From an uncultured Pelagibacteraceae bacterium (lineage in GTDB: Bacteria > Pseudomonadota > Alphaproteobacteria > Pelagibacterales > Pelagibacteraceae), in NCBI GenBank assembly GCA_902587095.1, contig CACIJY010000001.1, forward strand, positions 186,001-250,000: 64,000 bases of DNA, written 5' to 3'. A program made the position numbers and the translations under genes. The notes under the pieces are model-generated. The model saw only the letters and a program-made list of their open reading frames with translations. It ran no database searches and was not told where the DNA came from. Shown here one piece after another: positions 15,186-16,462 of this stretch. The stretch's first letter is position 1. Each line of letters opens with the position of its first letter.

Positions 15186-15362
15186 ATGAATTTTATGAGT
15201 CTGGAGGTAATAGTGCCAGTAATAGCCTTAATAGGCGTACTAGTGCTAGTTTTGCCTGGTTTTATTCAAACTAATTATAGCTTTAAGATCCTAATTAAGA
15301 ATTTATCAATATGGATTATAGTGATAGCTGTAATATTAATATTTATATATTTTATATTATAA
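15186..15362 (+). CDS. Small hydrophobic protein (58 aa, two predicted TM segments)
   Basis: Manual translation: MNFMSLEVIVPVIALIGVLVLVLPGFIQTNYSFKILIKNLSIWIIVIAVILIFIYFIL; 6 bp after dnaJ; not in the ORF track. Confidence 0.55.
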   Translation: MNFMSLEVIVPVIALIGVLVLVLPGFIQTNYSFKILIKNLSIWIIVIAVILIFIYFIL

Positions 15363-15369
15363 ATAATAA

Positions 15370-15549
15370 TTAATTATTTTCAGTGCAGATATCCTTGATA
15401 ACTGGAACACTTGAGCAGTCACCACATTTAGTTACTTGAACTAAACAACCACTATCAAGTAATTTTACATCAACAACTCTATCGCATTTAGAGCATACTG
15501 ATGAAATAGTTAATCCACATTTTTTACAACTAAATTTTTGTGTTTGCAT
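15370..15549 (-). CDS. Small cysteine-rich protein (59 aa, 8 Cys), zinc-ribbon-like
   Basis: Manual translation: MQTQKFSCKKCGLTISSVCSKCDRVVDVKLLDSGCLVQVTKCGDCSSVPVIKDICTENN; three CxxC motifs. Confidence 0.7.
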   Translation of the reverse strand: MQTQKFSCKKCGLTISSVCSKCDRVVDVKLLDSGCLVQVTKCGDCSSVPVIKDICTENN

Positions 15550-15595
15550 AAGTAAAAGATAGGAAATTAAAAATATTATTCAAGAAATAACGTAT

Positions 15596-15615
15596 AATAT
15601 TGATTATCATTATCA
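15596..15615. promoter_or_regulatory. Putative Fur box A
   Basis: AATATTGATTATCATTATC is 16/19 to GATAATGATAATCATTATC; core TGATTATCATTATCA at 15601-15615. Confidence 0.7.
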
Positions 15616-15655: not shown

Positions 15656-15675
15656 ATGAATGATAATCATTATCA
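15656..15675. promoter_or_regulatory. Putative Fur box B
   Basis: ATGAATGATAATCATTATC is 16/19 to the Fur consensus; core TGATAATCATTATCA at 15661-15675. Confidence 0.75.
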
Positions 15676-15688
15676 ACAAAATCTTTAT

Positions 15689-16462
15689 ATGAAAATAAAT
15701 TTAACTATTACAGGCTGTATGGGAAGGATGGGGAAACAACTTATTAAGTCCTCAAATAAAAATAAAAACTTTAAAATAGTTTCACTTACTGAAAACTATA
15801 AAATTAATAGAAAAATAAATAATATTTTACCTGAATTTAATAATGTTAATTCTTTCAAAAAAACTAATATCATTATAGATTTTACAGTTCCTAAATGTAC
15901 TCTAGAAGTGCTTAAAATTGCTTCCAAACTAAAAAAAAGAGTTGTTATAGGCACTACTGGCTTTACTAAAAACCAGGAAAATTTAATAAAAAAATATTCT
16001 AAAGAAATACCGATACTAAAAGCTGGAAATATGAGCTTAGGGATTAATTTATTGATGTATTTAACAGAAATTACCTCCAAATCTCTTGGAAATAATTTCT
16101 TAAGTAAGGTTTTTGAAATTCACCACAAACACAAAAAAGATCACCCGTCTGGCACGGCATTGATGCTTGGAAAAGGAATAGCTATTGGAAAAAATAAAGA
16201 TTTGAATAAATTGATCGGAGAAAAATATCTAAATAAAAAATCTTTTCCTTATGGAAAAAAAATAAATTTTAATTCGATGAGAAAAGGTGAAGTAGTTGGT
16301 GAACATGAGGTAAAATTTTCTAGCGGCAAAGAAATTATAACTTTAAATCATGAAGCATTTGATAGAGCTTTATACTCTGAAGGCGCTCTAACTGCCGCAA
16401 AATGGTTGATGAAAAAGAAACCGGGCCTTTACTCAATGAGAGATGTATTGAACTTTAAATGA
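15689..16462 (+). CDS. dapB: 4-hydroxy-tetrahydrodipicolinate reductase
   Basis: MKINLTITGCMGRMGKQL, FEIHHKHKKDHPSGTAL; start moved from 15656 because the extension MNDNHYQQNLY overlays Fur box B. Confidence 0.95.
   Translation: MKINLTITGCMGRMGKQLIKSSNKNKNFKIVSLTENYKINRKINNILPEFNNVNSFKKTNIIIDFTVPKCTLEVLKIASKLKKRVVIGTTGFTKNQENLIKKYSKEIPILKAGNMSLGINLLMYLTEITSKSLGNNFLSKVFEIHHKHKKDHPSGTALMLGKGIAIGKNKDLNKLIGEKYLNKKSFPYGKKINFNSMRKGEVVGEHEVKFSSGKEIITLNHEAFDRALYSEGALTAAKWLMKKKPGLYSMRDVLNFK

Follow-up and report, generated by a model that had tools for sequence, protein, structure and literature searches.

Next to dapB, in the 64-kb stretch of DNA analysed here (the window), a short open reading frame rich in cysteine codons lies beside two Fur-like palindromes. 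This arrangement raises the questions of whether the reading frame, here termed cys8, is a gene, whether it or dapB is the Fur target, and what its product might do in SAR11 bacteria.

A conserved eight-cysteine protein gene

The reading frame begins with an ATG and comprises 59 codons (Table 1), with cysteines at positions 8, 11, 19, 22, 35, 42, 45 and 55. An earlier note on this DNA had described a 59-residue protein with eight cysteines in the layout CxxC-x7-CxxC, then C, CxxC and C; its sequence matched ours exactly and the layout was recovered unchanged. A search of SAR11 genomes for homologues, which the note had proposed, yielded orthologs that keep this pattern, all eight cysteines being invariant in an alignment of 35 diverse sequences. 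Other invariant or near-invariant elements of the alignment included, among others, KCG, CSKCD, VDV, TKC and P-V-I-K-D-x-C. A profile search of 357 genomes (members of the genus with a completeness of 80% or more, together with the window's own genome) gave 178 matches, comprising orthologs in 163 genomes (E < 1e-30) and 15 members of a distant family (E 1e-9 to 1e-6), whilst searching 101 genomes of the genus with a single sequence detected cys8 in 40, or 43 counting distant relatives. In the genome_contigs collection 276 stretches encode cys8, and the titles of the 80 retained among them all name Pelagibacteraceae or Pelagibacter. Outside the genus, orthologs were present in further genera of the family and in a single genome from a different family of the class; curated phage records gave no match to cys8. 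In-register codon comparisons, leaving out two out-of-register loci (L038 and L084), gave dN values of 0.02–0.2 against dS values of 0.2–1.3 (dN/dS approximately 0.02–0.2), and on this measure cys8 is under purifying selection. As judged from these comparisons, cys8 is a genuine gene of ocean SAR11 bacteria and a strongly conserved one.

Table 1. Positions of cys8, its putative control elements and the adjoining genes within the window
Feature	Position	Strand	Remarks
TM58, 58-aa membrane protein gene	15186..15362	+	Convergent with cys8
cys8, 59-aa eight-cysteine protein gene	15370..15549	-	Open reading frame, orthologs, purifying selection
cys8 -10 hexamer, TATCTT	15556..15561	-	6 nt before ATG
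cys8 -35 hexamer, TTGAAT	15578..15583	-	16-nt spacer
Proximal Fur box, TGATTATCATTATCA	15601..15615	.	Centre -59 from cys8 ATG; spacing conserved across loci
Distal Fur box, TGATAATCATTATCA	15661..15675	.	Perfect 7-1-7 palindrome; centre -119 from cys8 ATG
dapB, start moved to Met-12 of listed reading frame	15689..16462	+	Ortholog alignment; divergent from cys8

Fur-type sites upstream of cys8

Two Fur-like palindromes (TGATWATNATWATCA) lie between cys8 and dapB and are the sole ones in the window with at most one mismatch; 0.40 were expected by chance, and two were reached in 7 of 100 shuffles. The 5' end of cys8 does face these tandem boxes, as the earlier note had stated, and the 47 bp it gave between the nearer box and the ATG is about right, the distance being 51 bp for a 15-bp definition of the box and approximately 46 bp for a 19-bp definition. 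The listed dapB reading frame begins at 15656 and covers the distal box. However, dapB orthologs align from residue 10–12, with two extending to residue 5–6 through a stop, so that the start given in Table 1 is the most likely one and both boxes are intergenic, the distal box being centred at approximately -21 from the corrected dapB ATG.

The same sites recur upstream of cys8 at other loci. Among 87 distinct upstream sequences, the 7-1-7 palindrome TGATAATNATTATCA was perfect in 34 (0.26 expected from dinucleotide shuffles), and sites within one, two and three mismatches of it were present in 60, 83 and all 87, respectively (0.4, 1.9 and 10.7 expected). Two separate Fur-like sites were found in 81 of the 87. 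The proximal site is near-constant in position, at approximately -52 to -60 from the cys8 ATG, whereas the distal site varies between loci (approximately -82, -88, -109 or -119). No Fur box was present in the 170 nt of upstream sequence examined for the distant ortholog from the other family (L167).

Perfect palindromes occur only twice in the window's genome, the assembly of which is 69% complete: at cys8 and at position 3499 of contig 11, between a LysR-like gene and a gene for an sfuC-like iron-binding protein. The sfuC homologue of strain HTCC1062 is upregulated 16-fold under iron limitation (PMC2864753). The same palindrome as at cys8 is found at the SAR11 sfu iron-transport and suf loci, and in other genomes near-boxes were present upstream of an iscR-like Rrf2 gene as well. 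The sfu and suf loci serve transport or Fe-S assembly, whereas cys8 belongs to neither category. According to an earlier description, SAR11 Fur boxes are 7-1-7 palindromes invariably located ahead of components of iron transport (PMC4771312); cys8, on the basis of these sites, extends the putative target list beyond iron transporters and would be a member of the core SAR11 Fur regulon.

Several further features of these loci were observed. Three Fur-family proteins are encoded in the window's genome, the gene for the best of them (G000 C1:185824-186192, minus strand) being cut by the left edge of the window (positions 1-192). At two suf loci (L205:1434-1479 and L208:1633-1678, from genomes G151 and G191) tandem one-mismatch Fur sites 31 bp apart lie between an alpha/beta-hydrolase-like gene and the iscR-like Rrf2 gene. 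Directly downstream of sfuC is a gene for a conserved 56-residue protein with three cysteines (CSPCxxEC; L203:230-400, L204:413-583 and L207:581-751), which had no Pfam match. FbpA, FbpB and FbpC are Fur-regulated small proteins of Bacillus subtilis. To judge from a reference title in PMC2864753, the B. subtilis proteins resemble cys8 in being small single-gene products of a Fur regulon; compared by description they are small basic proteins, whilst cys8 is an eight-cysteine protein.

Promoter geometry and sense of regulation

Upstream of cys8 the window reads TTGAAT-N16-TATCTT-N6-ATG. When distinct upstream sequences were anchored on the ATG, TTG was found at -34 in 60/86 and at -35 in 24/86 (84/86 in total), and all of the 60 with TTG at -34 (100%) had T at -12 and A at -11. 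The combined TTG and TA geometry was present in 70 of 82 distinct upstream sequences, where shuffles gave an expectation of 0.5; it also occurred in 23 of 32 clusters dissimilar from one another. By these alignments cys8 has a predicted sigma-70-type promoter that is fixed relative to its ATG, and since transcription would be expected to begin at the A of the ATG, the predicted mRNA is leaderless. A rule placing the -35 hexamer within 15 nt of a Fur box was rejected, as it fitted just 9 of 87 upstream sequences.

Both Fur boxes lie upstream of the -35 hexamer and overlap neither it, the -10 hexamer nor the start, their centres lying at -59 and -119 relative to the predicted start point. Because there is no overlap with the core promoter, cys8 was classed as Fur-box controlled and not as Fur-repressed. 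Repressed Fur sites of E. coli have a median position of -20 and activated sites a median of -74 (PMC10219339), and in comparison with the former the positions at cys8 argue against simple repression. The strong palindromes at cys8, on the other hand, would argue for repression: activated sites of E. coli are weaker and not palindromic, and E. coli Fur targets are mostly repressed (67/89; PMC10219339). Weighing position against site strength, we infer that Fur rather probably represses cys8.

The opposite sense is appreciably less probable but deserves consideration. Iron-loaded Fur (holo-Fur) may activate cys8 by recruiting RNA polymerase through the two upstream boxes, in which case the protein would be made when iron is plentiful and would act as a thiol metal buffer or as a Fenton-protection partner of the heme enzyme KatG. 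Such activation is consistent with boxes at -59 and at -82 to -119 and a core promoter free of them, as at activated E. coli sites, with a fixed distance for the proximal box and a variable one for the distal box, and with the association of cys8 with KatG described below. The boxes of sfuC, by contrast, lie near and downstream of its likely promoter. Set against this reading are the near-perfect palindromes of cys8, which do not resemble the activated sites of E. coli, and the preponderance of repressed targets in that organism.

Protein family and predicted metal sites

Searches with cys8 against Pfam, NCBIfam and PHROG returned nothing significant or above curated cut-offs. Zinc ribbon profiles gave sub-threshold matches only; FnrL, Nop10, DVU_1557 and FmdB fell below cut-off and were rejected as identities, and matches to PDB profiles were weak or spurious (xylanase lectin repeats, Nop10 and HVO_2753). 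Two AlphaFold runs gave pLDDT values of 51 and 53, too low for a fold search.

The invariant pairs C8/C11 and C19/C22 are CxxC knuckles that could together provide a Cys4 site. A distant family of 61–64 residues with the pattern MATYECSKCGMSVNATCGKC...KCP..HGKIKSPLCCGQDM, ending in CCGxDM (L137-L149 and L168-L170), shows homology to cys8 in profile searches (E 1e-9 to 1e-4). Both families keep the four N-terminal cysteines without exception and also share C42 and C55; the distant family, however, is without C35, has an extra C-terminal cysteine and carries C or H at position 45/46. It also differs from cys8 in having no Fur boxes and other neighbours. The two were found together in 0/357 genomes of the genus against 6.8 expected, an exclusion whose P value of 8e-5 ignores relatedness. 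A profile built from both families also gave matches in two genomes from a different family of the phylum. As the cysteines of the first site are invariant in both families and the second set differs, two local four-ligand sites are predicted.

Zinc is favoured as the putative metal by the CxxC-x7-CxxC mini-knuckle. Among small archaeal CxxC proteins zinc was bound in only 9/14, and in HVO_2753, which has four C(P)XCG motifs, zinc occupies just one of the two sites predicted for it (PMC11241148); these results indicate that metal prediction for cys8 needs care. Haloferax HVO_2753 (PDB 6YDH) resembles cys8 in its very small size and two predicted Cys4 zinc pockets, but it shows no significant similarity to cys8 (E 0.13), is archaeal and is not Fur-linked.

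The main alternative to zinc is iron in a rubredoxin-like Fe(Cys)4 site formed by C8xxC11 and C42xxC45, but iron is doubtful, whether there or in an Fe-S cluster through which the protein would pass electrons, e.g. to reduce peroxide. Desulforedoxin, rubredoxin and RCKP rubredoxin-like domains share with cys8 the CxxCG first knuckle and a rubredoxin-like spacing to C42xxC45, the 30 residues from C11 to C42 being close to the spacing in rubredoxin. Moreover, the distant relatives have a weak rubredoxin-like match (E 0.004) and end in CCGxDM, as desulforedoxin does. However, all of these matches lie below curated cut-offs, cys8 has four extra cysteines and lacks both a CC pair and the CCGxDM end, and C35 occurs only where the second terminal cysteine of the relatives is lost, which better fits a local second site. 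A metallothionein-like buffer holding several metal ions in a cysteine-rich cluster, an option raised in the earlier note, would suit eight cysteines in 59 residues under Fur control but is very unlikely given a cysteine content of only 13.6% (8/59), the regular CxxC knuckles and two-site layout, the many other invariant residues (e.g. PVIKD and VDV) and the lack of a metallothionein family match. Zinc in two local sites is the assignment retained below as a prediction.

Movement of the cys8 unit and the dapB junction

Neighbouring genes of cys8 vary widely between genomes. Among the first 100 loci, cys8 lies between dnaJ-TM58 and dapB in 21 and elsewhere in the remainder, and it is beside dapB only in the window's clade. 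When 154 loci were grouped by their flanks, at least nine neighbourhoods without a common flanking gene family were found, position classes having been linked by any common flank for this count. A tree of 125 cys8 coding sequences required 10 changes of position label and placed the window's arrangement in one clade (support 99/95). TM58 adjoins dapB in several genomes without the cys8 insertion; between dnaJ and dapB its position is kept and its sequence diverges fast (approximately 49–97% identity).

The 250 nt upstream of dapB were examined in 12 genomes that lack cys8 or carry it at another place, and the best site there had 3–6 mismatches. Since no Fur site precedes dapB where the insertion is missing and the boxes follow cys8 elsewhere, the boxes are assigned to cys8, and gene and boxes would have entered the junction together as a unit of approximately 320 bp. 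The earlier note had pictured a small Fur-controlled protein, with Fur sites acting only on dapB as the alternative; the boxes following the gene speak for the former, and the site-free, insertion-free dapB speaks against the latter. On these comparisons the Fur boxes probably do not belong to dapB, whose adjacency to one would therefore be an accident of the cys8 insertion. That the boxes serve dapB with cys8 as a bystander is most improbable and largely refuted, for although some 21 bp separate the distal box from the dapB ATG as corrected, and the insertion split dapB from the dnaJ-TM58 genes, dapB lacked a Fur site in 12/12 genomes where cys8 is not beside it and, within the genus, the boxes stay with cys8 in all its other position classes. 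In the window's clade the boxes may in addition have an accidental effect on dapB.

Association with KatG in place of rubrerythrin

In 52 of the 154 loci, forming the two large position classes, cys8 lies inside a katG module, where it follows katG (52/52), an Asp/Arg-hydroxylase-like gene (51/52) and DUF2061. This module is situated between fabA-irr and an SH3-like gene. The arrangement irr-katG was present in all 11 cys8-plus genomes examined, with or without cys8 at the site, whilst five of five cys8-minus genomes carried irr-rubrerythrin-FeS oxidoreductase-DUF3501. In a sixth cys8-minus genome (G082), rubrerythrin (rbr) was found at the irr site as predicted beforehand, giving irr-rbr in 6/6. 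The perfect split of 11 against 6 would arise by chance once in 12,376 if the genomes were independent, which they are not. In a tree of FabB and FabI the katG and rbr states were intermixed, and well-supported branches forced at least two changes. The association thus sampled comprises 17 genomes together with linkage in 52 loci, and as katG and cys8 are often adjacent and can be co-inherited, the co-occurrence partly reflects linkage. Within this sample, and by gene content, cys8 is found in lineages that appear to use the catalase KatG, not rubrerythrin, against peroxide.

The names irr, katG, rbr and DUF3501 were assigned by reading of the sequences, irr also by a Fur-family match. A ferritin reading of PF00210 matches was wrong, the sequence there reading as rubrerythrin. 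In the window's own genome the katG module lies outside the window, at approximately 165.1–168.7 kb of G000 C1 (L245), cys8 having moved away from it; the swap site as a whole occupies approximately 163–174 kb of the same contig, to the left of the window, and was compared in L237-L252 and L275. A one-mismatch Fur site also precedes a second Asp/Arg-hydroxylase-like gene (L206:1287-1958), which is divergently oriented with respect to a hemB-like gene.

Proposed role and significance

We propose that the product of cys8 is a small metalloprotein, probably cytosolic, that has two four-cysteine sites, C8/C11/C19/C22 and C35/C42/C45/C55, and would most likely be double zinc-ribbon-like. Iron-loaded Fur would act at the two boxes just upstream of the sigma-70-type promoter, from which transcription would start at the ATG; we favour repression that is relieved when iron is scarce, with activation by holo-Fur as the main alternative. 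Gene, promoter and boxes would form a self-contained unit that has moved repeatedly, its insertion in the window being that between TM58 and dapB. The likely role of the product would be that of a thiol/zinc accessory, either a redox-sensitive adaptor or a metal buffer, of iron and peroxide defence in lineages that have the heme enzyme KatG in place of rubrerythrin. The sequences themselves show the gene and its conservation, the Fur-type sites, the promoter geometry, the mobility and the co-occurrence with katG, whereas binding by Fur, the sense of control, the metal and the biochemical role are inferred from them. Taken as a whole, this model of a Fur-gated, double zinc-ribbon-like metalloprotein carried on a mobile unit as an accessory of KatG-type defence seems to us about evenly balanced between right and wrong. 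A version in which cys8 is a Fur-gated, leaderless single-gene mobile module, encoding an iron-responsive KatG partner switched on by Fe-Fur at plentiful iron, with SAR11 lineages alternating between katG/cys8 and rubrerythrin defence at the swap site next to irr, is offered tentatively and appears unlikely in its entirety. The mobility of cys8 and its link with KatG as opposed to rubrerythrin go beyond the earlier note, and the KatG link is new here.

SAR11 are among the most abundant bacteria of the ocean, where iron limits production over large regions. To the Fur targets of this group, described as iron transporters (PMC4771312), cys8 would add a conserved gene of another kind, and one that is unrecognised by profile libraries. 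The culture study of HTCC1062 reports rubrerythrin (PMC2864753); if the pattern described above holds, this strain would be one without cys8 and could not have revealed it. The katG-rbr swap provides a testable view of how peroxide defences are exchanged in streamlined cells and, if the model is confirmed, cys8 transcripts may serve as a marker of iron status for KatG-type lineages.
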